IMG/VR virus record: IMGVR_UViG_3300047356_001191
Location: 1-45,773 of that record
DNA length: 45,773 bases
Strand: one strand, 5' to 3'
Source of the DNA: a virus
A program made the translations under genes and the position numbers. Every line of letters begins with the position of its first letter. The first letter of the stretch is position 1. Positions 11,446 through 43,733 of the stretch are shown piece by piece. The notes below the pieces were generated by a model. That model saw only the letters and a list, made by a program, of their open reading frames with translations, did no database searches and had not been told where the DNA came from.

Positions 11446-11454
11446 TTTTTTCTC

Positions 11455-15472: not shown

Positions 15473-15474
15473 AA

Positions 15475-16218: not shown

Positions 16219-16220
16219 AT

Positions 16221-17219: not shown

Positions 17220-17220
17220 A

Positions 17221-21067: not shown

Positions 21068-21363
21068 CCCTTTATTCCTAATAATGTATGTTCGTTAAAA
21101 AGAAAATGAGTTTCACCTTCAAGTTTGATTCTATTGTTAGCTTGAGCCTTTTCGTAAATAACAATATCACCTCTCTTTACAGTCATTGGTATTCTACTTC
21201 CATTTTGTGAAAATATACCTGTACCAACTTCTATAACTTCTCCTTCTAATTTTTGAGCTTCTGTCATTGATTCGGATACAATGATACCTCCACTACTTTT
21301 AGTTTCACTAACTTTGATAGGTTTAACTAAAACTCTATCTCCTAATGGTTTAAATTGTTTCAT
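21064..21363 (-). CDS. groES: GroES-like co-chaperonin, 99 aa
   Basis: Full-length Cpn10: FKPLGDRVLVKPIKV at the start, the mobile-loop region SETKSSGGIIVSESMT (about 18-33), EGEVIEVGTG, VKRGDIVIYEK and a terminal LGIKG. It should cap the host GroEL and help fold phage proteins, as T4 gp31 does for the capsid, although it is a real GroES sequence rather than a gp31 type. The mobile loop carries GGIIV, the hydrophobic GroEL contact. It is placed inside the glycan cluster, overlapping both neighbours, so it is co-transcribed with sugar genes. Confidence 0.9.
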   Translation of the reverse strand: MKQFKPLGDRVLVKPIKVSETKSSGGIIVSESMTEAQKLEGEVIEVGTGIFSQNGSRIPMTVKRGDIVIYEKAQANNRIKLEGETHFLFNEHTLLGIKG

Positions 21364-23815: not shown

Positions 23816-24086
23816 CTTCTAATTCTCTTAATCTGTTTTCTTCTTCGTTTCTTAAACATCTCTCTATTGAGAGTTTTGTTAGTTTTGTAATTTCCTCTAA
23901 TGTTTCTGGCTCATGAGGTGAATTGTAACATTCAAATCTTGTAGTTTCAATTTCATTATCTTGTAAAGTTAACAAATGATAATCCTCATTGAGTTCTTTC
24001 ATATTATGGATTGCTCTACGAGATTCATTCACTTGGTTATTCGTCCAATAACCAGGAAATCTCACAATGAAGATTGGTTTACTCAT
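23808..24086 (-). CDS. Hypothetical protein, 92 aa
   Basis: Reads SKPIFIVRFPGYWTNNQVNE, then an amphipathic helix and a strongly charged C-terminal helix (RCLRNEEENRLRELEDE). No signal peptide or known motif. Sandwiched between two GT4 genes, overlapping one base with the upstream and eight with the downstream gene. It may be a small partner of the transferases, but there is no direct evidence. Confidence 0.5.
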   Translation of the reverse strand: MSKPIFIVRFPGYWTNNQVNESRRAIHNMKELNEDYHLLTLQDNEIETTRFECYNSPHEPETLEEITKLTKLSIERCLRNEEENRLRELEDE

Positions 24087-25465: not shown

Positions 25466-25475
25466 TAACCTTTAT

Positions 25476-25613
25476 TTAAATTGTTCTAAATCTTCTGTGG
25501 TGGTTTAACTTAACTCTCATAGTTTGTCCTAAATATTTTTTAGTTTCAACTCTATCGTTGAATTCATTGCGAGTTTGGTTAAGTTGGTTGTTACCGTTAT
25601 CTTGTTGTTTCAT
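25476..25613 (-). CDS. Small basic peptide, 45 aa
   Basis: Reads MKQQDNGNNQLNQTRNEFND, then RVETKKYLGQTMRVKLNHHR and RFRTI. Asn/Gln-rich start and a basic tail (NHHRRFRTI). It fills the otherwise empty gap between the 64-residue gene and the first GT4 gene, with 2-10 base spacing at each end. Nucleic-acid binding is possible from the charge. No family recognised. Confidence 0.42.
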   Translation of the reverse strand: MKQQDNGNNQLNQTRNEFNDRVETKKYLGQTMRVKLNHHRRFRTI

Positions 25614-25615
25614 AT

Positions 25616-25810
25616 TTAAAATGCAGAACCACTCTGTTGTAAGTGTTCGTAATTATTTATTTCATTTCTAAAATCTTCATCTTCAACATATTTGTTGACT
25701 GAACGATTTACTAATTTTTGTAAGGTGATATTAGAATCGAAAGAAATTCTTTTAAATTTTGAGTAAATATCTTTAATGATTTTTACAGTTGTTAGTTTTG
25801 TATCTGCCAT
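25616..25810 (-). CDS. Ribbon-helix-helix-like small protein, 64 aa
   Basis: TKLTTVKIIKDIYSKFKRIS (a basic strand then a helix) followed by NITLQKLVNRSVNKYVEDE fits a ribbon-helix-helix (Arc/MetJ-type) DNA-binding fold. The strand T-T-V-K-I would contact the major groove. The tail (NYEHLQQSGSAF) is polar. A good AAAGGA ribosome-binding sequence sits seven bases before the start. It is just ahead of the 12-kb glycan operon, so it may regulate that operon or phage gene timing. A regulatory role is inferred from fold and position only. Confidence 0.55.
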   Translation of the reverse strand: MADTKLTTVKIIKDIYSKFKRISFDSNITLQKLVNRSVNKYVEDEDFRNEINNYEHLQQSGSAF

Positions 25811-25864
25811 AACTATCCTTTTTTTAAGTCATTTTATATAAATATATATAAATTTAAAAAACGA
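25811..25864 (-). promoter_or_regulatory. Possible promoter for the small-protein/glycan operon
   Basis: 54-base AT-rich gap. On the minus strand it contains TATATATTTATATAAAATG, a TAnnTTT-like -7 box, ahead of the ribbon-helix-helix gene. It lacks the TTCG and a clear TTGG at the 19-base distance, so it does not belong to the conserved set. It is the only sizeable gap upstream of the glycan genes. Confidence 0.35.
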
Positions 25865-26725
25865 TTAATTCCAAGCAGAACAAAGTCCTCTTTCTTTAAA
25901 TTCACACCAATCACATGGTTTACCTTTGTTAGTTGGAAATACGGTTTGAATTACATCACCATTATCTCCATAAACAGAATCTACAAAGTTCATAAAATTT
26001 TTCCAAGCCATATTCATTGAAGGTTTTCCATTAGCGGGAACAAACTTTGATATTCTTGGTATCGGAAAGTCTGCACCTTCCCATAGTTTTCTTTTAAGTA
26101 TCTGATATTCTACTCTGATTTTATCCAATGGTATATCATACTTATCTGAATAGAATTTTTTATACAATAACATCTGAGAGGTTTTTACTTTATCATTCTT
26201 TTGATATTTGTTCCAACCTCTTGTTGAAGTTTTCAAATCAATGATAATATATTCTTGTGTAGTTTTATCTTTTAGAAGTACATCAATAAAACCAATGAAA
26301 TGAATACCAGGTTTAATCTCAGCATTCAACCTCTGTTCTATTGCTACGAGTTCATATCCACTTTTAGTATATAACTTATCTAATTTACTTCTAAAGTATT
26401 TTAGAATTTGTTTACCATCTTCAAAGAACTCACCCAATTCTTCTTTCTTACAAGGATACATTCCTTCATCCATCTTATCAGATTCTTTCTTGAAATGGTC
26501 TACCATTTGTTTGTACAACATTTTTTCTAAATCCAATTGAAGGGCCTGTTTTTTTGTAACATTATACATCACATCCAAGAAGTGTTGTATTGTTTCGTGC
26601 ATTGCACTACCAAAAATTGTGTGGATATTAGCCGATGATGTTCCTAACTTATCAATATAATTTAGTTTGTATTGTTGTTGACAACTTGAATACATACCAT
26701 ATTGAGAATAACTTACTCTTGCCAT
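25865..26725 (-). CDS. RecB/Cas4-like PD-(D/E)XK nuclease with probable iron-sulfur cluster, 286 aa
   Basis: PD-(D/E)XK exonuclease of the RecB/Cas4/AddB class. N-terminal MARVSYSQYGMYSSCQQQYK holds the first Cys. FGSAMHETIQHFL is the helical His motif. Then GIHFIGFIDVLLKD (catalytic Asp, about 169-182), EYIIIDLKTSTRGW (D-x-K, about 187-200), and the C-terminal CDWCEFKERGLC adds three Cys. One N-terminal plus three C-terminal Cys is the pattern that holds a 4Fe-4S cluster in Cas4 and AddB. Likely a 5'-3' exonuclease for recombination or end processing. No cas genes or repeat arrays are nearby. Own promoter at 26744-26774. Confidence 0.8.
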   Translation of the reverse strand: MARVSYSQYGMYSSCQQQYKLNYIDKLGTSSANIHTIFGSAMHETIQHFLDVMYNVTKKQALQLDLEKMLYKQMVDHFKKESDKMDEGMYPCKKEELGEFFEDGKQILKYFRSKLDKLYTKSGYELVAIEQRLNAEIKPGIHFIGFIDVLLKDKTTQEYIIIDLKTSTRGWNKYQKNDKVKTSQMLLYKKFYSDKYDIPLDKIRVEYQILKRKLWEGADFPIPRISKFVPANGKPSMNMAWKNFMNFVDSVYGDNGDVIQTVFPTNKGKPCDWCEFKERGLCSAWN

Positions 26726-26743
26726 ATTGTTTTATTTACTATG

Positions 26744-26774
26744 TAAATATACGAAAAATAAATGAAAAATCCAA
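26744..26774 (-). promoter_or_regulatory. Bacteroidetes-type promoter (copy 2), drives the RecB/Cas4-like nuclease
   Basis: TTGG at 26771-26774, 19-base spacer, TATATTTA at 26744-26751. About 30 bases from -33 to -7 are almost identical to copy 1 (shared GCTTGGATTT and CATTTATTTTTCG parts). The ATG of the nuclease gene lies 18 bases downstream. Confidence 0.82.
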
Positions 26775-26777
26775 GCA

Positions 26778-27977
26778 TTATCTAAAATTTATTTTTGTAA
26801 CTTCTTTATAATTTTGTCCATTTCTTTCATCAAGAAATTTAAGTGAATCTTTAACTTCTAATGGAGTATGGGATGGTGAATTATTTAACATAGATTTTAT
26901 TATCTTATCTATATTAGATTTAAAATAATCACTATCATATCTTTTTACATTTTCTTTTAAAAACTTTTTGATTTTAAGTCTTTCAATTTCATATAAGTTT
27001 TCTAATGCAAAATACCCAAACGTATCAGAAAATTCTACTTCATCAAATTTTTTGATTATATTATTTTCAAACATATAATCCATGAAATCAAATATATGAT
27101 AAACATTTATTGGAGTAACAGTATATTGGAATCCAAATGTGAATTTATTTTCAGTATCCTTAACACCAGAACATACGAATAACTTTTTAATCTCTGATAG
27201 ATTTTTCATCAACTTTTTAGTTTTAAATCCAACTCTTTGATATTCTCCAACCTCACCAATACCATCACAAGATATAGCTAAATGTACTCTTTTGAACTTT
27301 TCCCATAGTTTCATATAAGATTTACCTTGATATGAAAGGGTTGATAAGTTTGTATTATAATGTAATGAAATCTCTGATGGATTATTCTTGATTAAAAAAT
27401 CAAGTAAGTTATAGTTCTCTTTCATTATTAGTGGTTCTCCACCTGCAAAGTATATTCTTTTTAGTTTAGAAAGATGTGGGATTAATTCATCCAATATATT
27501 ATCAGATATATTAATAATTTTTGTATTATTTTTTTGATAATCACCTTGACCTTTTTGTCCATACCCCATATCTTCATACCATTGTGATGAAAATTCATGA
27601 GTACACATTATACATTTAAAGTTACATAGATTTGAAAATCGTATATCAATGTATTGAAAATCAGAAGCTACTGAAAAATCTTCTTCTACTTCGGGCATTT
27701 GATATTGTTTATATTTTAAACCATCATTAAAACTATGCCTTGGACTATATAAAGATAAATCTTCTTGTTTATAACAAACATCACAAACTTTATTACGAAC
27801 CCCATTCAACATATCTTTTCTAAGATTTTTCATTTCTTTAGAGTTGAATGCAGGTTCAATTCCTTCTTTTATGTTAGGTTTATCATCAAATGAATCAGCT
27901 ATACAACAAGGTCTTAATTCACCATCAGTTGAGCTATATAAGTGAATGAAGGGTAATATACAAAAAGTATCACTCAC
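26778..27977 (-). CDS. Radical SAM protein with Cys-rich N-terminal (twitch-type) domain, 399 aa
   Basis: Radical SAM core motif CNFKCIMC (C-x3-C-x2-C, about 112-119), with the glycine-rich AGGEPLIMKEN (about 168-178). The first ~65 residues carry FCILPFIHLYSS ... RPCC and CDVCYKQED, extra Cys for an auxiliary iron-sulfur cluster, as in N-terminal twitch-domain radical SAM proteins. Enzymes of this group often modify peptides, but no substrate is shown here. It is the last gene of an operon with gp62, a Zn-ribbon protein and a 117-residue protein. A second such enzyme lies at 29101-30183. Confidence 0.8.
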   Translation of the reverse strand: MSDTFCILPFIHLYSSTDGELRPCCIADSFDDKPNIKEGIEPAFNSKEMKNLRKDMLNGVRNKVCDVCYKQEDLSLYSPRHSFNDGLKYKQYQMPEVEEDFSVASDFQYIDIRFSNLCNFKCIMCTHEFSSQWYEDMGYGQKGQGDYQKNNTKIINISDNILDELIPHLSKLKRIYFAGGEPLIMKENYNLLDFLIKNNPSEISLHYNTNLSTLSYQGKSYMKLWEKFKRVHLAISCDGIGEVGEYQRVGFKTKKLMKNLSEIKKLFVCSGVKDTENKFTFGFQYTVTPINVYHIFDFMDYMFENNIIKKFDEVEFSDTFGYFALENLYEIERLKIKKFLKENVKRYDSDYFKSNIDKIIKSMLNNSPSHTPLEVKDSLKFLDERNGQNYKEVTKINFR

Positions 27978-28429
27978 ACTTTTAATTTTAGTTTGGTTAT
28001 TTGTTTTTTATCAATTCCATATCTTTCACAGATATACTTGATATTTTCTCTACCTTCTTTTGTTGAGTAAAGTATTTCACAGTAATCTTCTGCCTCTTTT
28101 GAAGAACACATAAAATCTTGTATTATTAAATCAACTAACCAACTTTCATATTTGTTATCTTTTTTACCTTTTGTATATTTTAAAAAATATCTTCCTTTTG
28201 GTATAATACCAATAAGGGAAAGATACAATTGTTTGGGTTCTAATGTTTGAGTATAAGGCTGTATCTCTGAAAGAACTTCTATCCAATCAGGATTCATAGA
28301 AAGAAAACGATGAACCATATAGTTACTCCAAGTTTTCTTATCACCATCTTCAAGTTTATCCCAATACTTTGGGTCTTGAAATTGTGTAACCGCCTTTATG
28401 TGGTCAAATAATGATTTAGTTTTTGCCAT
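27974..28429 (-). CDS. Clamp-loader small subunit, gp62-like, 151 aa
   Basis: Size and sequence agree with T4 gp62 and its marine phage relatives. WSNYMVHRFLSMNPDWIEVL corresponds to the YSKFMVENALSQFPE region of T4 gp62, and IGIIPKGRYFLKYTKGKK matches its MAAVPRGKRYGKWAK region. This subunit joins four gp44 subunits to form the loader that opens the gp45 ring. The gp44-like ATPase is at 30585-31532 and the clamp at 40429-41154, so the loader genes are split by other genes, unlike in T4. Overlaps the next gene by four bases. Confidence 0.68.
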   Translation of the reverse strand: MAKTKSLFDHIKAVTQFQDPKYWDKLEDGDKKTWSNYMVHRFLSMNPDWIEVLSEIQPYTQTLEPKQLYLSLIGIIPKGRYFLKYTKGKKDNKYESWLVDLIIQDFMCSSKEAEDYCEILYSTKEGRENIKYICERYGIDKKQITKLKLKV

Positions 28430-28685
28430 TTCCTTTTAGTTCGTTGGGTAGTAACTCTTGATTTATCTCACCACAATCTCCACATAGATATAATTCTACT
28501 GGTATGATTGCATCGTTTGGTGTACCTGTTACTATCTTAGAAATCTTTAAGAACTTAGTACCTGGTATAAATACAGTACCTCCACATTCTTGACATTTCA
28601 TTTCTGTTGCCTTTGATAAATCTATCTTTGGTTGTTGAGGTGGGGGTGTATTTCCACCACCATTCATTCCTATAATCTTTGCCAT
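28416..28685 (-). CDS. Zn-ribbon protein, 89 aa
   Basis: Gly/Pro-rich start (MAKIIGMNGGGNTPPPQQ), then MKCQECGGTVFIPG and LYLCGDCGEINQE: two CxxC knuckles about 35 residues apart, a classic zinc-ribbon. No further domain. It lies one gene upstream of gp62 and overlaps it by 14 bases. Zn-ribbons in this position may bind DNA, the loader or RNA polymerase; none is shown. Confidence 0.65.
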   Translation of the reverse strand: MAKIIGMNGGGNTPPPQQPKIDLSKATEMKCQECGGTVFIPGTKFLKISKIVTGTPNDAIIPVELYLCGDCGEINQELLPNELKGNGKN

Positions 28686-28696
28686 AATTTATTTAT

Positions 28697-29050
28697 TTAA
28701 TCGAACCATTGAGAACGATGTGTTTTTATATTTTTAATTCCTTCATCCCTATACTTTGGATGGTTCTTTTCATATTCAGCTAATCTATCTGCAATTTTAG
28801 CTTTAGCCTTTTCTTCATTCTCTTTACCAACCTTTTCAGCATATTTCAATTCTTCATCGGTAATCTTCTCACCCTTTTGTGCTTTATCTAAAGCAGCAAA
28901 TCTTTTGGTATGATAAGAACTTAGAGGTTTACTGAATTGTTTTAGGTGTTCAGTTTTACCATCTAAGTATTCTAAGAATCCATCAAAGTCATCTTTTCCG
29001 AGCTTATCTAACTCCTTATCGGTTAAAGGATTATTTGGGTCGTATTTCAT
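28697..29050 (-). CDS. Charged helical hypothetical protein, 117 aa
   Basis: Rich in Lys, Glu and Asp, no Cys, no signal peptide. A long helix-forming stretch covers about 50-95 (KAQKGEKITDEELKYAEKVG then KENEEKAKAKIADRLAEYE), ending THRSQWFD. First gene after promoter copy 3. Function unknown; an early gene by promoter class. Confidence 0.55.
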   Translation of the reverse strand: MKYDPNNPLTDKELDKLGKDDFDGFLEYLDGKTEHLKQFSKPLSSYHTKRFAALDKAQKGEKITDEELKYAEKVGKENEEKAKAKIADRLAEYEKNHPKYRDEGIKNIKTHRSQWFD

Positions 29051-29068
29051 ATTATATTATTTACTTTG

Positions 29069-29099
29069 TAAATATACGAAAATTTTTCGATATATCCAA
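29069..29099 (-). promoter_or_regulatory. Bacteroidetes-type promoter (copy 3), drives the gp62 operon
   Basis: TTGG at 29096-29099, 19-base spacer, TATATTTA at 29069-29076 preceded by TTCG. The start of the 117-residue gene is 18 bases downstream, as in copy 2. The -33 box lies at the very end of the radical SAM gene next to its stop. Confidence 0.8.
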
Positions 29100-29100
29100 A

Positions 29101-30183
29101 TTAAACTAAAGTTTTTTTCATTAAGTGATTAAAATTATGATTTACATAAGGTTTTCTATATAAAATATTAAACTCTTTTTCAAAATCAGAAAATTTTGGA
29201 TGATGTGGTTCAAATACTTTAATAGATTCTACTTCCTCTTTTGAATACTTACCACTTTCCCAATAAACATGCTGTCTAAATACTATTTCTACTTTCCTTC
29301 TTCTACTACTTTTACCAAAAATATCTATCATAGTATTATAAAATGAGTTCATTTCATGAAAATTATATTCATTTACTACAAATGATAACTGTATGATACC
29401 AATAGTAGGTATTGTATTTATAAATTTTAGATTTTCAATCAACTCATCCCAACTACCACCAAGTCTCGTAATATTTTCGTATGTAGTTTTACTACCAGCA
29501 TCAATTGATACTTCAATATCTTTTATATATTCAGTACAATTTAAACTATCCCACATTTTTTTGTTTAACATTCTACCATTAGTGATTATTTTTATACATT
29601 CTAATTTAGAATACTTTGATTTGTTAAAGTTTTGGAGATATTCTCTATAAATATTCGAATAAAATGGGTCTCCACTTCCTGTTATCAATAATCTTTTTAC
29701 ATTTTTAGAAAACTTTCGTTCTATAATATCTAATATTTTATTTTTTTGAATATATTGAGGAGTATTTTTTCTATCATTTGGTACAAGAGAATGTCTACAA
29801 GATGGGCATTTTAAATTACAACTTCTATCAAATCCAAATAATATAAATTCAGGATAAAAATTAATATTATAAACATCTTCTATATTATTTATACCATAAT
29901 AATCAGTAAATTTATTTTTTTCTATAAAATTATCTGGAATTGTTTTTTTATGAATGAGTTCATTTAAACTTGGACAAACTTTTTTATCACAAAATTTATA
30001 CGAACCATCTAATACTGATTTTCGTATTTCATTTGCCCTACTTGTTTCCCATCCCAAACTATCATTTTTTTCATAGTTTATATCAGTATCACACCAAGAT
30101 GGACAACATATATATGATTGCTTACCTTGAGAATCTAAATAGTTAAATGGGTTTTTACATACATATTTATCTAAAATACTCAT
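29101..30183 (-). CDS. Second radical SAM protein with Cys-rich N-terminus, 360 aa
   Basis: Core motif CNLKCPSC (C-x3-C-x2-C, about 118-125) with LFGFDRS just before it, and RLLITGSGDPFYSN (about 160-173) as the glycine-rich motif. The N-terminal part has KYVCKNPFNYLD, YICCPSWCD and KFCDKKVCPSL, seven Cys for one or more auxiliary clusters. It is distinct from the other radical SAM protein in sequence but has the same architecture. It follows directly after thioredoxin (one base) and a 33-residue Cys-containing peptide. A peptide-modifying role is possible but unproven. Confidence 0.78.
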   Translation of the reverse strand: MSILDKYVCKNPFNYLDSQGKQSYICCPSWCDTDINYEKNDSLGWETSRANEIRKSVLDGSYKFCDKKVCPSLNELIHKKTIPDNFIEKNKFTDYYGINNIEDVYNINFYPEFILFGFDRSCNLKCPSCRHSLVPNDRKNTPQYIQKNKILDIIERKFSKNVKRLLITGSGDPFYSNIYREYLQNFNKSKYSKLECIKIITNGRMLNKKMWDSLNCTEYIKDIEVSIDAGSKTTYENITRLGGSWDELIENLKFINTIPTIGIIQLSFVVNEYNFHEMNSFYNTMIDIFGKSSRRRKVEIVFRQHVYWESGKYSKEEVESIKVFEPHHPKFSDFEKEFNILYRKPYVNHNFNHLMKKTLV

Positions 30184-30184
30184 A

Positions 30185-30490
30185 CTACAAAAGAATATTT
30201 AGTACATTCTGTACTATTTCTTTTTTATTTCCATACTCATTTGCAATTACCTTACCTTTTTTAAAAGCAACTACCATTGGTATATTTGTTAAATCAACTA
30301 AACTTTTACTTTGGGGTGATTCATCGGGATTTATAAATACAAAAGGAATTTGTTTGTATAAATTAGAAACTCGTTCAAACTCTGGTTTAAGGATATCACA
30401 ATTTCCACACCAATCAGTACCAAACATAACCATCAATTTTGGTTGTGTTCTTCTCAATACATCAAGTGAATCTGTTTCTAACTTTATCAT
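30185..30490 (-). CDS. Thioredoxin-like protein, 101 aa
   Basis: Thioredoxin fold with active site WCGNC (Cys28 and Cys31, FGTDWCGNCDILKPEFE), a middle strand IPFVFINPDE, and the cis-proline in LTNIPMVVAFKKGKV. Central residues GN instead of GP suggest a redox potential different from standard thioredoxin. It could reduce ribonucleotide reductase or serve the radical SAM partner encoded next to it. ATGA overlap with the 33-residue peptide upstream. Confidence 0.85.
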   Translation of the reverse strand: MIKLETDSLDVLRRTQPKLMVMFGTDWCGNCDILKPEFERVSNLYKQIPFVFINPDESPQSKSLVDLTNIPMVVAFKKGKVIANEYGNKKEIVQNVLNILL

Positions 30491-30588
30491 AGTAAAGGGC
30501 CTGCACTACCACATTTGATTACAGCTTTCATTCGTTGTTCTTCTAACCAAGTTAAATACTTCCAAAGTTTTTTTAATTTGTTTATCAT
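30487..30588 (-). CDS. 33-residue peptide with a single Cys near its end
   Basis: Reads MINKLKKLWKYLTWLEEQRM, then KAVIKCGSAGPLL. An amphipathic aromatic helix and a Cys-Gly-Ser-Ala-Gly-Pro tail. The start overlaps the clamp-loader stop (ATGA) and the stop overlaps the thioredoxin start (ATGA), so it is fully embedded in the operon and likely translated. Short size, terminal Cys and position ahead of thioredoxin and a radical SAM enzyme are like a precursor peptide, but a small structural role fits as well. Confidence 0.5.
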   Translation of the reverse strand: MINKLKKLWKYLTWLEEQRMKAVIKCGSAGPLL

Positions 30589-31532
30589 AATATACCAACA
30601 ATCTGAATTATACAACTCATAAAAGTAATTTCTTTATCTACTACCAATGCATCTTTGTGTTGTGATTCAGAAAGAATTAGGATTATGTTTGAAGTATTAG
30701 TACCACCATAATCATCTACCTTTTCATATAAGAATGTATATAGTTCTGTAAAATCTTGTATTCTTGCATCAGCAACAGCCTGTCTGATATTCTTCCATTT
30801 GTTTGGTTTAGCATCAGAACCTTTAAGAATCTCAACTACCTTAGATTTAATATCCGAATCGATTACAGAGGTTGTATCAAGTTTTAATTGTCCTTTGGTA
30901 GAATTTAACTGACAAGTGTTAATAATCTTTCTAATATCAGGATATGAACTATCAATGATAGGTACAAGGTCTGTTGGTTTGAAACTAACTCCCTCTTTAC
31001 CTAAAATTTGTGAGATTTGTACTGCCACTTCTTTTTTAGATGGAGGAACAATCTGAAATGTTTGACATCTACTTTGAATCGGGTCAATAACCTTCTCAAC
31101 ATAATTACAAGTTAGAATAAATCTACAATGTTTTGAGAATGTTTCCATCAAGTTTCTAAGGATTGCCTGTGCATTTGGTGTCATGTAATCGAACTCATCA
31201 AGTATGATTACTTTCATATCCTTAAAACCAATCGTGGAAGCAAAACCCTTTACCTTGTTTCTAACTGTATCTACATTATTCTCATCAGATGCATTTATAA
31301 CAATATAATCACAACTAATTGAATTTACAATCAACTTAGCTAAGGTTGTTTTACCTGTACCAGCTTTACCAAAGAATAAAAGATGAGGTACATCTCCACT
31401 CTGAAGGTAATCACTTACTTTTTGTTTCAGGTGTTCGTTACCAACATATTCTGTTAGTTTACGAGGTCTATATTTTTCAACCCACAATGAGTTGTTTACC
31501 TCTTGGTTTGTTGTATCTTCAAAAAATGCCAT
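30585..31532 (-). CDS. Clamp-loader ATPase, gp44/RFC-small-subunit-like, 315 aa
   Basis: AAA+ ATPase of replication factor C type. Start: WVEKYRPRKLTEYVGNEH. Walker A GKAGTGKTT (55-63), Walker B VIILDEFD (108-115), sensor 1 FILTCNYVEKVI, arginine-finger SRCQTFQI (about 153-160) and a collar-like C-terminal domain. It loads the phage sliding clamp on primed DNA with the gp62-like subunit. Four copies would be used per loader by T4 analogy. Downstream of the 72-residue gene by a one-base step. Confidence 0.9.
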   Translation of the reverse strand: MAFFEDTTNQEVNNSLWVEKYRPRKLTEYVGNEHLKQKVSDYLQSGDVPHLLFFGKAGTGKTTLAKLIVNSISCDYIVINASDENNVDTVRNKVKGFASTIGFKDMKVIILDEFDYMTPNAQAILRNLMETFSKHCRFILTCNYVEKVIDPIQSRCQTFQIVPPSKKEVAVQISQILGKEGVSFKPTDLVPIIDSSYPDIRKIINTCQLNSTKGQLKLDTTSVIDSDIKSKVVEILKGSDAKPNKWKNIRQAVADARIQDFTELYTFLYEKVDDYGGTNTSNIILILSESQHKDALVVDKEITFMSCIIQIVGIL

Positions 31533-31533
31533 G

Positions 31534-31752
31534 TTAAAATGTTGAATTTTTTACTTCTTTACAGAACTCTGATAATCTTTCTAACTTTTCAATGATAGAT
31601 TGTTTTCTATTTTCATCAAGATTTCTTTGTAAATTCATTTCACCGATTAATTCTTCGATAGATTTAGATACTATTATCAAACCATCTTCTTTTGAATTAA
31701 GAAAATTTTCAGATACTCTGAACTTCTGTGCAATTTGTGTTAAGTTTGCCAT
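31534..31752 (-). CDS. Small helical protein, 72 aa
   Basis: Charged, almost entirely helix-forming (SIEELIGEMNLQRNLDENRK then QSIIEKLERLSEF), one Cys. First gene behind promoter copy 4 and one base upstream of the clamp-loader ATPase, so it is expressed with it. It is too short and unlike gp62. A replisome accessory role is possible from context only. Confidence 0.5.
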   Translation of the reverse strand: MANLTQIAQKFRVSENFLNSKEDGLIIVSKSIEELIGEMNLQRNLDENRKQSIIEKLERLSEFCKEVKNSTF

Positions 31753-31772
31753 TATAATTTATTTTTGTTTTA

Positions 31773-31803
31773 CAAATATACGAAATTTATTTGGACTTTC
31801 CTA
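31773..31803 (-). promoter_or_regulatory. Bacteroidetes-type promoter (copy 4), drives the clamp-loader operon
   Basis: TATATTTG at 31773-31780, preceded by TTTCG. The -33 position (31800-31803) reads TAGG rather than TTGG, the weakest of the set, and lies inside the 3' end of the upstream gene. ATG 20 bases downstream of the -7 box. Confidence 0.72.
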
Positions 31804-32332
31804 ATAATTTCATAACTTTTTTTACTGTTTTCGGCCCAACCTCTATTTCATGGTAAGGAACTTTGTTTTCATCTAATACTTTTTTACACAATTTATCTAT
31901 CTCAATTGATTTTTCTAAATCTTGAAATCTCTCATCATCATTGTGTACCGATTCACCTCGTTTTAATAAGATATTGATACTATCATATTTTGAATGTAAA
32001 TCAATAACTAAGTTATGGAAAGGTTCTCCATAAAATTCAGCAGGATATCCTTCTGTGTAATATCTGTGGTAAATTGTAGAAAATAAAATTGGTGAATCAA
32101 TTACTATATAATCTACTTTATTATAACATTCTGCTATTCCTCTATGTTGATTAGCAAATACATACAACTGGTCTGATATTGCTGGTATGTTGTGGTCCCA
32201 AGCTAATCTTTTTGGGAATTCATAGGGATTGTTACAACTTATATGTTTCTTTTTGAGTTTGTAGGTGATACCATTTGCTATTGAGGATTTCCCAATACCA
32301 GGTCCACCGAAGAGGTTTATCAATTTGCTCAT
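31787..32332 (-). CDS. P-loop nucleotide kinase-like protein, 181 aa
   Basis: Walker A GGPGIGKSS at residues 9-17 of KLINLFGGPGIGKSSIANGI. A second acidic strand VDYIVIDSPILFST (about 72-85) has D-S-P. NILLKRGESVHNDDERFQD (about 118-136) gives a lid-like arginine segment. This fits the AAA_28/NadR-like small ATP-binding kinases of phages, possibly nucleotide or nicotinamide-riboside kinases. Substrate is not known. Overlaps the S1/P1 nuclease gene by four bases. Confidence 0.68.
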   Translation of the reverse strand: MSKLINLFGGPGIGKSSIANGITYKLKKKHISCNNPYEFPKRLAWDHNIPAISDQLYVFANQHRGIAECYNKVDYIVIDSPILFSTIYHRYYTEGYPAEFYGEPFHNLVIDLHSKYDSINILLKRGESVHNDDERFQDLEKSIEIDKLCKKVLDENKVPYHEIEVGPKTVKKVMKLLGKSK

Positions 32333-33090
32333 TCTCCAAATATATCATTTAAAAGGTTACCCAATCTGATTCCAGCTAAATACAATCTCTCATCTACGAT
32401 TGGTAAATTCTCATATACATAGTCATATGATAAATATGAACCATCCTTTGTTTCATAAATCTTAGATACATACTCATGAGATTCATTTGCCCAATCCTCA
32501 GGAACTCCTTGTTCTACTATTGTATCTTTAAATTGATTTTGTAGTTTGGTAGCATATTCTGTATAACTCATTTTATAATCATCAATCAATCCAGCATCCC
32601 ATAAATCATGTAAGTTAGTTAAACCCTCAGCATCTTTTCTACCTTTGAAGTAAACATTAATTTTGTTTCCACCCCAATCTTCTTCTCTACCTGTATGAAG
32701 TGGTTGATGAACATCACCAACCATATGAACTAAATACTTTAACCAAAATTGTTTTGTTTTTTTATCAGCCATTGGTGATTGTAAAATAGGAATTGCTGTG
32801 TTAATCATCTTAACTACATTTGGTCCTAAATGTTCTACATCACCATATTCTTTATCAAGAGGAAGATTAACATAATGCCAAGTTGAATATTTATCAAACT
32901 CTGGATTACTTCTCATTTCATCTGCCCATGTACTTGCAACTGCAAGTGATTGTCCATCTAATATTTCATTTATTTTTTGTTCTGCGGTGAATGATAGTTG
33001 TCTTTGTGCAATCTCACCAACAGTTCTGTGTCCTATTTTACCCCAAGAACTAAGGAGTAGTACTGATAGTACTAATAATAACTTTTTCAT
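32329..33090 (-). CDS. Exported S1/P1-type zinc nuclease, 253 aa
   Basis: Sec signal MKKLLLVLSVLLLSS, cleaved before Trp16. S1/P1 nucleases use the free N-terminal Trp as a zinc ligand, and all nine ligands of the P1 family are found: Trp16, His21, Asp57, His72, His122, Asp126, His132, His161, Asp165 (HMVGDVHQPLH, NLHDLWD and WHYVNLP motifs). GGNKI is the substrate-side loop. This predicts an active tri-zinc nuclease or nucleotidase that cuts single-stranded DNA or RNA in the periplasm or outside the cell. Unusual cargo for a T4-like phage. It overlaps its neighbours by four bases on each side. Confidence 0.9.
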   Translation of the reverse strand: MKKLLLVLSVLLLSSWGKIGHRTVGEIAQRQLSFTAEQKINEILDGQSLAVASTWADEMRSNPEFDKYSTWHYVNLPLDKEYGDVEHLGPNVVKMINTAIPILQSPMADKKTKQFWLKYLVHMVGDVHQPLHTGREEDWGGNKINVYFKGRKDAEGLTNLHDLWDAGLIDDYKMSYTEYATKLQNQFKDTIVEQGVPEDWANESHEYVSKIYETKDGSYLSYDYVYENLPIVDERLYLAGIRLGNLLNDIFGE

Positions 33091-33332
33091 AATAAGGTTT
33101 TTATCAATGAATATAAATAACCACTAAATCCTACTAAGTTTAATAACGATAGGTTATACTGTTTTGTTTTTTGTGTTTGAATCGTTATTAGGATTAAACC
33201 TAACATCATTCCTATTTTACCGTATATCAAATCGATAAAAAAAGGAGATAACATCATAAATGATGTTCCTAAGTATATTACGCCATATTGATATAATAAA
33301 TCTATTTTACTTTTTGCTTTTTTTGTTTTCAT
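33087..33332 (-). CDS. Small membrane protein with about three spans, 81 aa
   Basis: Basic N-terminus (MKTKKAKSKIDLLYQYG) followed by hydrophobic spans at about 18-36 (VIYLGTSFMMLSPFFIDLIY), 40-50 (MMLGLILITI) and a C-terminal one (NLVGFSGYLYSLIKTLL). It may sit in the inner membrane. Coupled to the 38-residue gene by a TAATG overlap and to the exported nuclease by ATGA. A role in lysis, immunity or export with the nuclease is possible; nothing proves it. Confidence 0.55.
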   Translation of the reverse strand: MKTKKAKSKIDLLYQYGVIYLGTSFMMLSPFFIDLIYGKIGMMLGLILITIQTQKTKQYNLSLLNLVGFSGYLYSLIKTLL

Positions 33333-33448
33333 TATGATTCTAATTTATTAATTAGTAGGTTTATTTTTTCACAAAATTTGGGGAACAAACTTCTTGAAAC
33401 TAAAAAATTCCAAATAAAGTATAGTGTATTGAGTATAAGTTTTTTCAT
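33332..33448 (-). CDS. 38-residue peptide ahead of the membrane protein
   Basis: Reads MKKLILNTLYFIWNFLVSRS, then LFPKFCEKINLLINKLES; a short aromatic hydrophobic stretch and a helical tail. Stop and next start share TAATG (33330-33334). It follows directly after the terminator of the receptor gene, so it would begin the transcript unless transcription reads through. No own promoter was found. Confidence 0.42.
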   Translation of the reverse strand: MKKLILNTLYFIWNFLVSRSLFPKFCEKINLLINKLES

Positions 33449-33458
33449 AATAATAAAA

Positions 33459-33480
33459 AGGGGGAATGAAATTTCCCCCT
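33459..33480 (-). terminator. Rho-independent terminator after the TonB-dependent receptor
   Basis: On the minus strand AGGGGGAA - ATTTCA - TTCCCCCT, an eight-base-pair stem with a six-base loop, followed at once by TTTTATTATTATG. It is 16 bases after the receptor stop codon (33496). This is the clearest terminator of the window and marks the end of the receptor transcript. Confidence 0.88.
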
Positions 33481-33495
33481 CTTATTATTTTGTTA

Positions 33496-36198
33496 TTAGA
33501 ATCTGTATTTAAGAGAAGCGTTCCAAGTACGTCCGAATCCGAACCATACTGAGTTTCTCGTATCAACACCATTCCATGTTTGAGAAGCATCTCCTGCATG
33601 AATGTTAGTGTTAGATTCTGCAATGTAAGTAGTATCAAACAAATTGTTGATATTTACTCTGAATGAAGCATCATTTCCGAATAAGTTGAATCTGAAGGTA
33701 GAACCTAAATCAACTAATCCATAAGATGGTAACTTCAATGCACCTGCATTATCAGGTTGTGTAAATTCTGAATCAGTAATTGAGTAATCTGCGAAAAGAT
33801 TATCTACAAATCTATATCCTAAATCTACATTAAATTTACCAATCTTATAATCTGCCTCTAAGTAAGATACGAATTGTGCCGCATCTCCTACTTTAGCATC
33901 TTTTAAGTAAAGTGTACCAGTACCAATTGATTGTTGATTATCATCGAATAACTCAGCTGAGAAATCTTTAGTATATCTCCAATCACCGATTGATAACATA
34001 CCTTTTAATCTTAATCTACTTGTAGCATCCCATACTGTTTCAACTTCCAATCCATTGTGTACAACATCGATATCTTTAAATTGTGCGAATCCATCAACAC
34101 CTTGTTGGTTAGATAAACTTCTTGTTACAAATCTATTACCCCAATTAGTAGAGTATAAGTTTACATTTGCTCTGAAGTTATTACTAACGAAACCATAACC
34201 TAATTCAACTGATGTAATTTCCTCATTTTGTAAATCAGGATTAACATTGTTTGCATAGTTAGGGAATACACCATCAAAGTTTGGTTGTCTTGAAATGAAT
34301 CCAGCATTAAAGAACACATTATGTGAATCATTAATGTTGTAGTTAGCACCACCTTTTACATATCCACCACCTACATTTTCTGTATCTGATTCTGGATTAT
34401 CAGGTTGTGCAAAGTAATCAATTCTTTGGAATGATTGATTAGATAAACCACCTTGTAATACAGCAGATATAGTAGAGTTGTTATACTCAACTAAACCATT
34501 TACACCTTGCCAACCAACTTTACCAACATTGTAGTAAGCGATTTTAGGGCCATTTAAACCTGTATTTTGGAAAGGATTAGCATCAACTAAAGTGTTGATG
34601 ATTTGTCCTGCAGAGTTATCATTACCAGTTGAGTAATAACCATCTAATCCAAGAAGGTCATTTAATACTCTGTAATGGAATCCTGTGTAGTTTCTCAAAT
34701 CAACACCAATCGAAGTTTTCCAATTTCCACTTTCATATTCTAAGTTAGAGATTGCTCCAACCCAGTTATGAGAGTTCATAGATGCTCTTCTAATCAAGGC
34801 ACTTCTGTTTACACCATCTTCATTGAATCCATTAGAACCAATTAACTGACCTTCAAATGGTAAACCACCACTATATGGGTCTGTGTTTGATTGGTTAAAT
34901 GCAACAATAGCATCGAAGTCAATAAATCCTTCTGGTGTTCTTGAACCTCTACCATTTTCTAAGTAGTGTTCAGTAAGGTCTTTTCTGAATGGTAAGATAT
35001 CAGTTTCCGAGTTGTAGTAGTTTCTACCTCTTGGTCCTGTTCCTCCACCTCTACCAGCCGAACCATATAATGATGTAGCTAATTTAAGGTTAGAGTTAAT
35101 ATCCCAATCCCAGTTAAGAGTTGCCAATGGTTTGTTATAGAAGTTTCTTCTTAAAGAATATTCTTCTCCATTTAATGTACCACCATTGGTGTTCCATCTT
35201 CTATCAATTCCTTCTTCACCAAAGTTTTGGTAATCTCTAATAGAAACCCAAACATCTCTTTGGTGGTGCCATTGTCCAGCACCTAAGAATGAAAAGTTAA
35301 CTGAGTGGTCTGAATCTTCAGGTGCATATCCTAATGCAAAGAAGTAAGTGTAACCCTCACCACTTGTATTATAGATATAACCATCACCTGCCCACTTTGA
35401 AAGTAGTACAGATGTTGCCCATCCATTATCACTTAAACCAGTTGAGTGAGCAACAGTAGTTTTAGTATATCCATCGTTACCAACGACTTGTTGTACTGAA
35501 CTACCTGCTTGAGCCTCAGCTGCTTTTGTAAAAATTGAAACTGTTCCACCTACTGATGGTACTGCCAATCTCGAAGCTCCTAAACCTCTCTGTAATTGGA
35601 TACCACTAGCAACATCTGTTAAACCTTGCCAGTTAGACCAATAAACCCATCCATTTTCCATATCGTTAACTGGTTGCCCATTGATAAGGAAAGATGTGTT
35701 TCTTTGGTCAAATCCTCTAAGAGAGATTCTTGAGTCACCATAACCACCACCTTGTTTGGTAGCATAAACGCCTGGTGTCTTGTTCATAATTTCAGGAAAT
35801 TCTTGGTTACCTACTTTAAGTGCGATTTCTGAGGGTGAAATTGTTGATACTGCAACAGGTGTTTCTCTCACCTTAGCAACATCAATCACACCAGAACTCA
35901 CTACTACTTCACCAAGTACATTTAGGTCTGCTTGTAATGCAACAACCATACCTTGTTCAGCTGCTTCAAAAGCAGTTTCGTACCCAATGTAAGAGATAAT
36001 CAGAGTTTCTCCTTCTGATATTTCAATACTGAAAGTTCCATCAAAACCTGATACAACTCCATCCGCCGTTCCTTCGACTTGAATGGTTGCACCTGGTAAA
36101 ACATCACCGGTTTCAGCATCGATTACCTTCCCACTAATTTGTGCGAAGGTTGTGATACTTGTTAAAAGCATCAATCCAACTAATAATAGTTTTCTCAT
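33496..36198 (-). CDS. TonB-dependent outer-membrane receptor, 900 aa
   Basis: Complete receptor. Signal peptide MRKLLLVGLMLLTSITTFAQ, then a CarboxypepD_reg-like domain (about 21-100, SGKVIDAETGDVLPGATIQV), a linker with EVVVSSGVIDVAK, a plug domain (about 110-230, QEFPEIMNKTPGVYA, SLRGFDQRNTSFLINGQPV), and a 22-strand-type barrel ending LFDTTYIAE ... LKYRF with terminal Phe. It takes up a bulky substrate such as an iron complex, oligosaccharide or cobalamin using host TonB energy. No SusD partner is present. The domain layout is purely Bacteroidetes, so it was very probably acquired from the host. It has its own terminator. Confidence 0.93.
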   Translation of the reverse strand: MRKLLLVGLMLLTSITTFAQISGKVIDAETGDVLPGATIQVEGTADGVVSGFDGTFSIEISEGETLIISYIGYETAFEAAEQGMVVALQADLNVLGEVVVSSGVIDVAKVRETPVAVSTISPSEIALKVGNQEFPEIMNKTPGVYATKQGGGYGDSRISLRGFDQRNTSFLINGQPVNDMENGWVYWSNWQGLTDVASGIQLQRGLGASRLAVPSVGGTVSIFTKAAEAQAGSSVQQVVGNDGYTKTTVAHSTGLSDNGWATSVLLSKWAGDGYIYNTSGEGYTYFFALGYAPEDSDHSVNFSFLGAGQWHHQRDVWVSIRDYQNFGEEGIDRRWNTNGGTLNGEEYSLRRNFYNKPLATLNWDWDINSNLKLATSLYGSAGRGGGTGPRGRNYYNSETDILPFRKDLTEHYLENGRGSRTPEGFIDFDAIVAFNQSNTDPYSGGLPFEGQLIGSNGFNEDGVNRSALIRRASMNSHNWVGAISNLEYESGNWKTSIGVDLRNYTGFHYRVLNDLLGLDGYYSTGNDNSAGQIINTLVDANPFQNTGLNGPKIAYYNVGKVGWQGVNGLVEYNNSTISAVLQGGLSNQSFQRIDYFAQPDNPESDTENVGGGYVKGGANYNINDSHNVFFNAGFISRQPNFDGVFPNYANNVNPDLQNEEITSVELGYGFVSNNFRANVNLYSTNWGNRFVTRSLSNQQGVDGFAQFKDIDVVHNGLEVETVWDATSRLRLKGMLSIGDWRYTKDFSAELFDDNQQSIGTGTLYLKDAKVGDAAQFVSYLEADYKIGKFNVDLGYRFVDNLFADYSITDSEFTQPDNAGALKLPSYGLVDLGSTFRFNLFGNDASFRVNINNLFDTTYIAESNTNIHAGDASQTWNGVDTRNSVWFGFGRTWNASLKYRF

Positions 36199-36254
36199 AA
36201 TAATAATTTTTAAATTAAATTAATTGTAACCTGTTCATTTTTGAACGATTTTTT
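36199..36254 (-). promoter_or_regulatory. Upstream region of the receptor with a palindrome
   Basis: GTTCA-TTTT-TGAAC, a five-base inverted repeat (36233-36246), lies 35 bases upstream of the receptor start. The T-run beside it is on the plus strand, where no gene needs a terminator. An operator is the most likely reading. No conserved TTCGTATATTT promoter is present here. Confidence 0.38.
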
Positions 36255-37325
36255 TTATAAAAGATGTGGTTTTGCTTCATTAATACCCGAATTAGTAACA
36301 AGTACATAAGATGGATTGAAATGTTCTAAATCTTGTGCACCACCATAAGATAATGCTGATTTAACTCCATCAATTAATCCATTCACTATGAACTTTACTC
36401 CGCCCTTGTAGGGAATGGTTGTAGATTCACCTTCTACGTTTCTGGTCTGTTGACCATGTGTTACCTTCGTTTCTAATGAGGCCGAACCTCTATATCTCTT
36501 ATAAAGACCTTTGGGTGTCTCAACAATCTGACCTGGTGCTTCATCAGTACCAGCGATTAGAGAACCCAACATAACAGAACTCGCTCCGAGTGCCAGAGCC
36601 TTTGCAATATCTCCACTTGAACGAATACCCCCATCAGCCATAATGGGTGTTTCCGCAATAGATGCAATATCTTTTAAACAACTTACATTCGGTACACCGA
36701 ATCCTGTCTTAACTCTTGTTGTACAAAGTGAACCACCACCGATACCAACTCTTAATCCATCAGCTCCCCAAGATTCTAATTCTTGAGCAGCCTCTGTTGT
36801 TGCAATGTTACCAGCGATTATATCCACTTTTTCATCAAGATTCATTTTACACCACTCAATCATGTTTAACACATTTTGGTGGTGTCCATGAGCTACATCA
36901 ATAAGGATAATGTTGCAACCATTATCTACTAAAGATTTTGCTCTATGTCTATCACTTTCACTTACACCGATTGCAGCCATAATTGGGATATGAGGAATTT
37001 CTGAATGCCAATCATCCAACATTACACCCCAATCTTCAAATTGGTTACCATTTTCTTCGGAATAAATTCTGTGAGATAGTTCTTTTACTATATTTGATTG
37101 TTCTTCTATTGAGTTAAACCTATGGATACAACCAACTCCACCAAGTTTAAACATTTTATATGCCATTTCTAAACCACAAACAGTATCCATCGGAGATGCT
37201 ACTATTGGATTTAAAAGACCGTATCTACGAGATACGAGAGTATTTAATTTTATTTGAGTACGAGTAGGAATATTCGAGTACTTAGGTACTAATTGAATAT
37301 CATCGTAAGTCAAAGAATAATTCAT
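36255..37325 (-). CDS. guaB: IMP dehydrogenase-like enzyme without CBS domains, 356 aa
   Basis: Belongs to the IMPDH/GMP reductase family. Catalytic loop GIGGGSLCTTRVKTG with Cys201, substrate and NAD sites IMADGGIRSSGDIAKALALG and LGSLIAGTDEAPG, flap PYKGGV. The ADGGIR and AGTDE motifs favour IMP dehydrogenase over GMP reductase. The regulatory CBS pair of the usual ~490-residue enzyme is missing, so it should not be shut down by nucleotide binding there. It oxidises IMP to XMP, the committed step to guanine nucleotides. Residue before GS is Gly instead of the usual Pro. ATGA overlap with the 39-residue gene. Confidence 0.82.
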   Translation of the reverse strand: MNYSLTYDDIQLVPKYSNIPTRTQIKLNTLVSRRYGLLNPIVASPMDTVCGLEMAYKMFKLGGVGCIHRFNSIEEQSNIVKELSHRIYSEENGNQFEDWGVMLDDWHSEIPHIPIMAAIGVSESDRHRAKSLVDNGCNIILIDVAHGHHQNVLNMIEWCKMNLDEKVDIIAGNIATTEAAQELESWGADGLRVGIGGGSLCTTRVKTGFGVPNVSCLKDIASIAETPIMADGGIRSSGDIAKALALGASSVMLGSLIAGTDEAPGQIVETPKGLYKRYRGSASLETKVTHGQQTRNVEGESTTIPYKGGVKFIVNGLIDGVKSALSYGGAQDLEHFNPSYVLVTNSGINEAKPHLL

Positions 37326-41216: not shown

Positions 41217-43733
41217 CTAAAAGTTAAAAAACTTTTCAGCTGTTCTTTGTTCACTCACAACATCTCCCCATCCGATTGCATCAAAGAAATCTTGTAGTTT
41301 GTGTTTGAGTTCTCTTTCGAAGATTTTATTGTGGTCAATATAAGTTGCAATAAATTCTTCTATCTCTGGTGGGTCTGAATAACCTGTAAATGCCAATCCA
41401 TCTATTCCAAGAGGATTATCTTTAAGGTAAACCCATTTTACTTTATCACCATTTTTCATTGGTTCATATTTGAAAGGAGCTTTGAAATGTTGTAAACAAT
41501 CGTTATATAAGATTGCCGCCTTAACATGAGCAGGAGTTCCTTTCATCATTGAGAATCTTTCTCTCTTACCTTTCGGCATATACTTCTTAAGATTCTTTAC
41601 TGCTGAGTTCTTAGCAATTTCAGATGTAGGTCTGTTTATCATATTCTTTTTAAAATCTAAAACATAATCTGAAATTTCTTCTTCTGTTTTACCTTTTAGA
41701 ATATCAATCAAAACTGTACCCATACATTCTTGGAATGCTTTAGGGAATGAACTTCGTTTAACATCTAATCCCTTTACATCTAACTTATCAACAGGTACAC
41801 CATTATCTGATATAATCCATTGTGCGTATCTTTTCTTTGCAATCCACAATCCTGCCTTTGCAACATATTCTTTCTTAATCTCTAATCTGTGTTTATCAAC
41901 ATCTACATTGAAAATCTTTGTAGAAAGGATATCATAGAAATCATTAAGGTAATCTTGCATCTCTTCTGCAATCTCATTTACATAACCAGCAATTGTATCT
42001 TGGTCTTGTTCCTTCCAATTAGGAATTCTTTTATCCATTAAAGGAACTGCTGAGAAAAATACAGAATCAGTATCGATGTATATGTTAGAGTCAGCATCAG
42101 GAGTACCAAGCTCCTTGTTGTACTTGATATTAGCCATATCCGCAGTTGATTTAATAACTGTCTGTCCTGTTGTGGTAACAGCGGTAGCATTATCAACATC
42201 ATAGAACCTAAAGGCAGGAAGCCCAAGCACACCATATAAAGAGTTAAGTAAAATCTTCTGAACCAACTGACGTTTGTGATAGAAGGCATATTTTTCATCA
42301 TCTCCTGCTTTCCCATATTTTTTCATTTCATTTTTATACTCAACTCGTTTTTGAAACCACAAGTCAAGAATACCTGGTATACAACCAACCTCATCTGTTC
42401 TATAAAGTACACCATTAGATGCTACTGCGAACTTAGATTGTTCTAAATATTTTTTTAAATTTTCTTTTGATATAGAATCATCTCCTATGTAGTAAGTATC
42501 AACTTCTCCTTTTACAAACTTGTTTGCATCCCAATCTTGAATCTTACCAATCTTGGTTTCAGGTGAAATATTTACAGTCATAATAATAGAAGGATATAGG
42601 GAGGTTAAATCCAAATCATATATCCAATCATACTTACCAACGATTGGTGCCTTTACATAAGCCCCTATAAACTTCTCTTCATTGTTATCACGAATAGCTT
42701 GCATTCGTTCTTGTCTATCCGCTGGTTTATTTGGTGCAACTAAGTTTCTTCTTCTTAGATAAGTTAACATCGCTCCTTCAAGATACTTTGATGAGTAAAC
42801 AAAATCTTCATATGGTACATGACCAGCATGACAAATACCTCTACATAAATCAATGAACTGAAGTTTCTTATCAAAATCTACAACAAGTTCAACATCCACT
42901 AAGTTATACTCAATAAACTTTTCAATATCATCTCTGAATAATTGGTCTAAGTTTCCATCGTATTCAATTTTACCTCTACCTAATTCTATTTGAGCAATAG
43001 TATCCAATCGATAGTTTGGAAGTTCACCATAGTTGTAAATCTTATAAAGAGTGATATAATCTAAATAAGATACACCAGCCATAAAATATCTTTTACGATA
43101 AGGAGACCAGAAACATTGTCCGATTGGTGATAATCTATTTGCCTGTCTTTCACCTAACAATCTTTTGATTCTGTTGTATAACATTGGTGTATCGAAATAA
43201 TCAATATTCCAACCTGTAACGATTGATGGATTAATCATTTCATATAGTTCGAGATACTTCATTAACATATCTCTTTCATCTTTGAATGGAATTACGATTG
43301 CCTTATCGGTAGTTTTTTCTACCATCAATCCTTCCTTATCCATTACCAATACCCAATATTGATTTGTAGCCGAATCGTGAAGTGCAATTGAAGTAAGTTC
43401 ATTCTTAGCCTCTTCGGGATTTGGTAATCCACTTGTCATCTCACACTCAATATCATATGTAAGTACAACATGACCTTCTGATACATCATCTGTTTCAGAA
43501 TATAAATCTACTAAAGCTCTTGTAGTTTCTGGTACATCTGATTCGAATAATTCAGGGTCATCCTTCTTAAACTTATAAATTTTAGTTAGTTTATCCCCAT
43601 AAATAGAAGTGTGTTCACCTCTCTGTGCTTTTTCATAAGCATAACGAGTGTAAGGAAACGATGAATATCCTCTTTGGTCATCCCAAAGATGGATTAAATT
43701 TCTTTCTCGTTGATAATAAATGTTTTGATACAT
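41217..43733 (-). CDS. Family B DNA polymerase, gp43-like, 838 aa
   Basis: Replicative polymerase with 3'-5' proofreading. Exo I TYDIECEM (Asp94/Glu96), Exo II GWNIDYFDTPMLYN, Exo III EYNLVDVELV. Polymerase motif A DLTSLYPSIIM (about 372), motif B KILLNSLYGVLG (about 492), motif C IYIDTDSVFF (about 553). T4 gp43 is 898 residues. The C-terminus is EKFFNF, like a short clamp-binding peptide. The ATG is only six bases behind the promoter -7 box of copy 6, so its mRNA is probably nearly leaderless. All catalytic Asp are intact. Confidence 0.95.
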   Translation of the reverse strand: MYQNIYYQRERNLIHLWDDQRGYSSFPYTRYAYEKAQRGEHTSIYGDKLTKIYKFKKDDPELFESDVPETTRALVDLYSETDDVSEGHVVLTYDIECEMTSGLPNPEEAKNELTSIALHDSATNQYWVLVMDKEGLMVEKTTDKAIVIPFKDERDMLMKYLELYEMINPSIVTGWNIDYFDTPMLYNRIKRLLGERQANRLSPIGQCFWSPYRKRYFMAGVSYLDYITLYKIYNYGELPNYRLDTIAQIELGRGKIEYDGNLDQLFRDDIEKFIEYNLVDVELVVDFDKKLQFIDLCRGICHAGHVPYEDFVYSSKYLEGAMLTYLRRRNLVAPNKPADRQERMQAIRDNNEEKFIGAYVKAPIVGKYDWIYDLDLTSLYPSIIMTVNISPETKIGKIQDWDANKFVKGEVDTYYIGDDSISKENLKKYLEQSKFAVASNGVLYRTDEVGCIPGILDLWFQKRVEYKNEMKKYGKAGDDEKYAFYHKRQLVQKILLNSLYGVLGLPAFRFYDVDNATAVTTTGQTVIKSTADMANIKYNKELGTPDADSNIYIDTDSVFFSAVPLMDKRIPNWKEQDQDTIAGYVNEIAEEMQDYLNDFYDILSTKIFNVDVDKHRLEIKKEYVAKAGLWIAKKRYAQWIISDNGVPVDKLDVKGLDVKRSSFPKAFQECMGTVLIDILKGKTEEEISDYVLDFKKNMINRPTSEIAKNSAVKNLKKYMPKGKRERFSMMKGTPAHVKAAILYNDCLQHFKAPFKYEPMKNGDKVKWVYLKDNPLGIDGLAFTGYSDPPEIEEFIATYIDHNKIFERELKHKLQDFFDAIGWGDVVSEQRTAEKFFNF

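Follow-up and report, generated by a model that had tools for sequence, protein, structure and literature searches.

A TonB-dependent receptor gene carried by T4-like phages and its linkage to a secreted nuclease

Why would a T4-like phage carry a complete gene for a bacterial outer-membrane receptor? Iron chelates and vitamins are the usual cargo of most known TonB-dependent receptors (TBDRs), and TBDRs often serve as phage receptors. The metabolic cargo known from phages so far acts mostly inside the cell. The question is raised by a 45,773-bp virus record of IMG/VR, whose whole length is referred to here as the window. A first-pass annotation had pointed out a complete receptor in it and had proposed that the phage could use it to feed the infected cell (iron, glycans), to replace a lost receptor or to act as a decoy. 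It had also regarded such cargo as little known in T4-like phages, which holds for the present family of uncultured viruses: the open-access literature offered nothing on the family, on its pairing with a nuclease or on nucleic-acid uptake by such a TBDR. For other phages there is one mention: a putative TBDR has been noted in megaphages, with sugar uptake suggested, in the paper on Mar_Mega_1 (PMC9723777). Besides this, the open-access literature search returned only an ExbB gene in phages of Lentisphaerae.

The receptor and its phage surroundings

The complete 900-residue receptor of the first-pass annotation was recovered as an exact open reading frame (Table 1), with the signal peptide MRKLLLVGLMLLTSITTFAQ. 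Pfam places CarbopepD_reg_2 (6.8e-15), Plug (1.6e-12) and the TonB barrel (1.1e-6) on the product, Plug and barrel being above the cut-off. The AlphaFold2 model, built on 102 sequences (pLDDT 83.7, pTM 0.79), shows the signal helix, the CarbopepD domain, the plug and a barrel of about 22 strands as counted from DSSP, and Foldseek matched it to whole TonB-dependent transporters (PqqU, FhuA, FecA) with E-values down to 4e-41. The N-terminal plug inside a 22-strand barrel, by which TonB-dependent transporters are recognized, is therefore found by Pfam, AlphaFold2 and Foldseek alike. It is important to note that Foldseek gives no substrate clue, as all these transporters match alike, and that a PDB sequence search returned isolated CarbopepD domains only. 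Before the plug, at residues 103–109, lies a TonB-box region (G-V-I-D-[IV]-A-K), in which V104, I105, D106, A108 and K109 are 91–98% conserved among the phage copies. The window receptor has this conserved box, and its coupling to TonB is putative.

Table 1. Features of the receptor locus and its phage flanks, with positions in the window
Feature	Coordinates	Strand	Description
T4-like clamp loader	30585..31532	minus	phage context, downstream side; phrog_168, 4e-82
P-loop kinase (AAA_28)	31787..32332	minus	weakly similar to thymidylate kinase and to the kinase domain of NadR; in most cases part of the same island
S1/P1 nuclease	32329..33090	minus	has a signal peptide; zinc-ligand positions all conserved, among them the mature N-terminal Trp
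81-aa membrane protein	33087..33332	minus	predicted to have three helices; kept in many phages between the TBDR and a nuclease or kinase gene
Intrinsic-terminator-like hairpin	33456..33483	minus	11 pairs, 5 GC, T-rich tail; directly past the TBDR stop codon
TonB-dependent receptor (TBDR)	33496..36198	minus	900 aa: signal peptide, CarbopepD_reg-like domain, plug, ~22-strand barrel, C-terminal Phe
IMP dehydrogenase/GMP reductase family enzyme	36255..37325	minus	directly upstream of TBDR; purine interconversion; full-length
T4-like family B DNA polymerase	41217..43733	minus	phage context, upstream side; phrog_262, 9e-185

PHROG matches on both sides and the hairpin after the stop codon agree with the earlier description of a gene set between phage genes and closed by its own strong terminator. 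A processivity factor is also among the phage flanks of the TBDR. Upstream, past the GMP reductase gene, lie a DNA methyltransferase-like gene, a sliding-clamp-like gene and the family B DNA polymerase, whose closest counterpart in a cultured phage is that of Microcystis phage Mel-JY01 (53% identity). In the annotated phage collection, no record covered most of the TBDR at more than 36% identity. The 81-aa protein is present also in phages that have no nuclease gene; it belongs to no known family, its confident three-helix model gave no significant PDB match, and an assignment as a PnuC or SemiSWEET half-transporter was rejected at an hhalign probability below 1% against both families. An anti-phage defence role of the island was likewise rejected, because PADLOC gave no defence-family match for the TBDR, the S1/P1 nuclease, the 81-aa protein, the kinase or the GMP reductase.

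Occurrence in phages and exchange with bacteria

Relatives of the TBDR are encoded by 425 and 406 viral stretches in two scans of viral contigs. When the window proteins were searched by tblastn against the first 80 of these loci, dozens of contigs assembled from other metagenomes were found to have the TBDR surrounded by T4-like replication genes. For example, the order GMP reductase, TBDR, 81-aa protein, S1/P1 nuclease and kinase recurs in five contigs of other metagenomes (L013, L018, L019, L163 and L164). Such a recurring order excludes misassembly at the borders of the TBDR gene, and a search of other phage contigs for matching flanks, which the first-pass annotation had proposed, has thus disposed of a chimera. 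Further phage lineages also have the gene, in contigs of up to 297 kb carrying tail-fibre, primase-helicase, UvsX and more distant polymerase genes. Its dN/dS is about 0.13–0.19 in most of the diverged pairs (0.13–0.17 between the window and its relatives), which indicates purifying selection.

The presence of the TBDR was also scored starting from the DNA polymerase, on informative contigs and within 10 kb. With a polymerase at least 80% identical, 15 of 21 informative contigs carry it, so that related phages are not all devoid of the gene, a pattern that had been named beforehand as an argument against a phage-borne receptor. At 75–79% polymerase identity it is present in only 2 of 19, and many of these contigs show clamp, clamp loader and exonuclease without the island. 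Because near relatives mostly have the TBDR and distant ones keep the same order without it, the gene is cargo, and it occupies different places in the replication module. It has the genomic properties of an auxiliary metabolic gene, i.e., a host-type gene that is stable in phage genomes, intact and under selection, and it is almost certainly real, maintained and functional phage cargo. In being kept in the replication module it resembles the auxiliary metabolic genes of cyanophage photosynthesis, of nucleotide metabolism and of KVP40 NAD salvage; unlike these, which act in the cytoplasm, the TBDR module would act at the outer membrane and outside the cell. The megaphage TBDR of Mar_Mega_1 (LR745206) is likewise a receptor gene in a phage genome that has been regarded as metabolic cargo. 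However, it matches at 34% over about 200 residues only and belongs to another phage group, no nuclease link is reported there, and sugar uptake was a guess.

One near relative, L002, stands apart. In its bases 9973–22700, compared with 23499–36223 of the window, the TBDR shows no difference after about base 819 and nearly all downstream genes are identical; its 5′ flank is that of the L005 and L015 phages, and it has two clamp loaders. Either recombination with a breakpoint in the TBDR or a chimeric assembly would account for this.

In Bacteroidota, the phage TBDRs have single-copy orthologues of the same architecture at up to 76% identity. Each of five flavobacterial genomes examined has one close orthologue (70–74%), the next TBDR being at about 26–31%. 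In most bacteria, the gene adjoins pgi and M23 peptidase genes, a locus common in Flavobacteriia, and not nucleases, whereas the phage copies are set tightly among nuclease, kinase and nucleotide genes. Phage and bacterial TBDRs are interleaved in a FastTree tree of 172 sequences, with at least nine label changes by starred branches, a count obtained by an approximate method. We read it as evidence for no more than repeated exchange of the TBDR between phages and bacteria. Among phage copies, extracellular loops and strands show about equal conservation (0.748 vs 0.743 identity), whereas in bacterial copies the loops are less conserved (0.474 vs 0.552). Conserved loops, together with the conserved TonB-box region, are more in keeping with a transporter whose ligand is fixed than with a decoy that varies.

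Two side observations concern bacterial assemblies. In the Schleiferiaceae-type genomes of L096, L097, L105, L109 and L113, the TBDR directly follows recA, not pgi, and the tree groups these copies with phage L080. A contig of a Crocinitomicaceae MAG (L110, bases 26–2533) carries a TBDR nearly identical to the one of viral contig L081, with the same flanking genes; this contig is probably of phage origin and was binned with a bacterial MAG.

The nuclease and other genes beside the receptor

The island gene of most interest for the substrate encodes an S1/P1 nuclease (PF02265, 3.5e-61). Nine positions (W16, H21, D57, H72, H122, D126, H132, H161 and D165), the zinc-ligand positions of the family, are invariant among eight phage and bacterial homologues. 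The signal peptide would be cut just before the zinc-ligating Trp, and the profile matches solved S1/P1 nucleases from the first mature residue on (8qjl, 2.8e-40). The protein therefore agrees in family profile, signal peptide, mature N-terminal Trp and remaining zinc-ligand positions with bacterial 8qjl and with fungal S1 and P1. It differs from other S1/P1 nucleases in that the phage clade is separate from ordinary flavobacterial genes and is tied to a TBDR.

To avoid bias, viral contigs were searched with the nuclease alone. A TBDR lies upstream on the same strand in 29 of the 34 viral loci at 50% identity or more, within 600 bp in 26; two of the five loci that have no upstream TBDR end at a contig border. 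In the tree, the nucleases of the phages group with those of two Candidatus Arcticimaribacter MAGs in a single clade (SH-aLRT 96), from which 30 ordinary Flavobacteriaceae genes are separate. The phage nucleases share a single origin, and their linkage to the TBDR does not represent many independent events. In both Arcticimaribacter MAGs, the nuclease gene follows a TBDR and precedes a gene for a CNT-type nucleoside transporter, which in the second MAG stands at the contig end. In L103, a contig with ordinary bacterial genes, the order is TBDR, S1/P1 nuclease, CNT nucleoside transporter (PF07662, 2.9e-66), LOG-like gene and Endonuclease_NS. The only bacterial relatives found for the phage nuclease clade thus adjoin a TBDR as well. 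None of the 30 ordinary Flavobacteriaceae loci has the TBDR within 1.5 kb, and among 398 genomes tight pairing of an S1/P1 gene with a close TBDR occurs in Arcticimaribacter only. Many phages have the TBDR with no nuclease in reach. The nuclease linkage, which lies outside the interval considered by the first-pass annotation, and its bacterial nucleoside-transporter context are the strongest clue to the substrate.

In several phages, the gene immediately upstream of the TBDR encodes an unrelated secreted nuclease, Endonuclease_NS (PF01223), and in some of them an S1/P1 gene follows downstream. As a general marker of the TBDR, Endonuclease_NS was rejected, being a common phage gene that adjoins it in only 7 of 119 loci. 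Depending on the phage, further neighbours are the GMP reductase family (the IMPDH/GMP reductase gene adjoins the TBDR in other viral loci as in the window), phosphoribosyltransferases, a pyrophosphohydrolase-like gene, GTP cyclohydrolase, NAD synthase (nearby in four phages) and ribonucleotide reductase (RNR), the last named from its sequence and directly upstream in several phages. In the clustering of neighbours, cluster 1 merges the P-loop kinase with the overlapping nuclease gene. Eight bacterial genomes encode a secreted endonuclease/exonuclease/phosphatase close to the TBDR of the pgi locus. Most of these genomes have a second TBDR there and, where scanned, a DUF5689 protein; the secreted enzyme may instead serve the second receptor. 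In an independent bacterial neighbourhood (L519, bases 5780–9572, genome G188), an ordinary S1/P1 gene lies divergently beside a 37%-identical TBDR paralogue and a lipoprotein-like gene.

Proposed role and alternatives

Judging the substrate by gene linkage, we lean slightly towards the receptor being an active outer-membrane importer of nucleic-acid breakdown products, which works with secreted nucleases and feeds phage DNA synthesis. Early or midway through infection, the phage-made TBDR would be exported into the host outer membrane, where host TonB-ExbBD would power it. Nucleic acid outside the cell, e.g., from lysed neighbours, would be cut, and its fragments bound and drawn through the receptor. 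The S1/P1 nuclease, which belongs to a well-defined enzyme family and has an intact active site, would act after export in the periplasm or at the surface, together with Endonuclease_NS in some phages, and turn fragments into nucleotides and nucleosides. Host nucleoside transporters would carry these to the cytoplasm. There, salvage by host and phage enzymes (the GMP reductase/IMPDH family, phosphoribosyltransferases, kinase and RNR in various relatives) would yield dNTPs for phage DNA; the phage enzymes are present in the genomes, and the flux into phage DNA is presumed, as are expression and ligand of the receptor.

The main rival is import of a micronutrient, be it an iron chelate or a vitamin (e.g., thiamine, nicotinamide riboside), which would supply, e.g., iron for RNR or an NAD precursor, while the nuclease would have a separate function in the same island. 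Such compounds are what most known TBDRs import, the upstream RNR genes would suit it, and so would the NadR-like trait of the kinase and the nearby NAD synthase genes; moreover, some of the next-best flavobacterial TBDRs have a gene for a PnuC-type vitamin transporter a few kb away at most. We nevertheless consider it unlikely. These PnuC-near paralogues match at 26–31% only, mostly in the plug region, the 81-aa protein is not PnuC-like, the BtuB-type B12 receptor model TIGR01779 reaches 40.2 bits against a cut-off of 599.7, and it is secreted nucleases, not iron or vitamin genes, that recur beside the TBDR. Far less probable is glycan import of the SusC type, which has been proposed for Mar_Mega_1 (PMC9723777): the CarbopepD domain of the window receptor and its partial match to the SusC/RagA model are offset by a TIGR04056 score of 77.2 bits against a cut-off of 368.25, confined to the N-terminal part, and no SusD-like lipoprotein or glycoside hydrolase occurs among the neighbouring window proteins scanned. 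In short, the proposal that the phage receptor feeds the infected cell is retained, while iron and glycans as the food give way to what the linked secreted nucleases and nucleotide-salvage genes point to.

The receptor might, on the other hand, replace, mask or compete with the host TBDR used by phages, thereby restoring a lost function, blocking superinfection or acting as a decoy. TBDRs are frequent phage receptors, the FhuA-pb5 and FhuA-Llp structures are among the Foldseek matches, and the close identity to single-copy host orthologues would suit a substitute. Yet the gene belongs to the replication module and has a conserved TonB-box region, the phage loops evolve no faster than the strands, unlike an arms-race surface, and a decoy leaves the co-conserved nuclease unexplained; this role, also raised in the first-pass annotation, is disfavoured and appears improbable to us. 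That the gene is host DNA misassembled into a phage, or cargo devoid of function, can be given hardly any credence: apart from L002, which looks chimeric or recombinant inside the TBDR, the same flanks are found in many independent metagenomes, the frames are full-length, and the low dN/dS speaks for function.

Marine Flavobacteriaceae such as Lutibacter degrade extracellular DNA (PMC8289736). Nucleic-acid import can be extended to the broader view that marine Bacteroidota phages carry a foraging system of receptor and secreted nuclease, with which the infected cell scavenges DNA or RNA of other lysed cells, and that the substrate class of a widespread but orphan family of Bacteroidota receptors can be read from the order of genes in the phages; we give this view even chances. 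An energized outer-membrane importer installed by a phage would alter what the infected cell takes up. If it takes up breakdown products of nucleic acids, the DNA, phosphorus and nitrogen released in one lysis would be recycled by marine phages into the next, and a large, unassigned family of Bacteroidota receptors would acquire a substrate that can be tested. Moreover, since phages and bacteria exchange receptors that are closely similar, surface receptors could spread in this way.

Other parts of the window hold further genes. Pfam identifies the product of 26778–27977 as a radical SAM protein; its PADLOC matches to viperin are weak and perhaps generic. The product of 29101–30183 has the look of another by its Cys motif, its homologue in L033 being a radical SAM protein by Pfam. 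A second group of signal-peptide proteins is encoded at 4051–13631 on the minus strand: one with a PA14 domain (4386–7013), one with a signal peptide, long Ser/Gly/Asp and then Glu/Lys low-complexity stretches and a barrel-like C-terminus ending in Phe (7563–9350), one that is CsgG-like by eye only, without database support (9354–10076), and one that is cohesin-like below the cut-off (11455–13122). These could be phage-encoded surface or secretion proteins, and homologues of several of them lie near the TBDR in L032 and L055.
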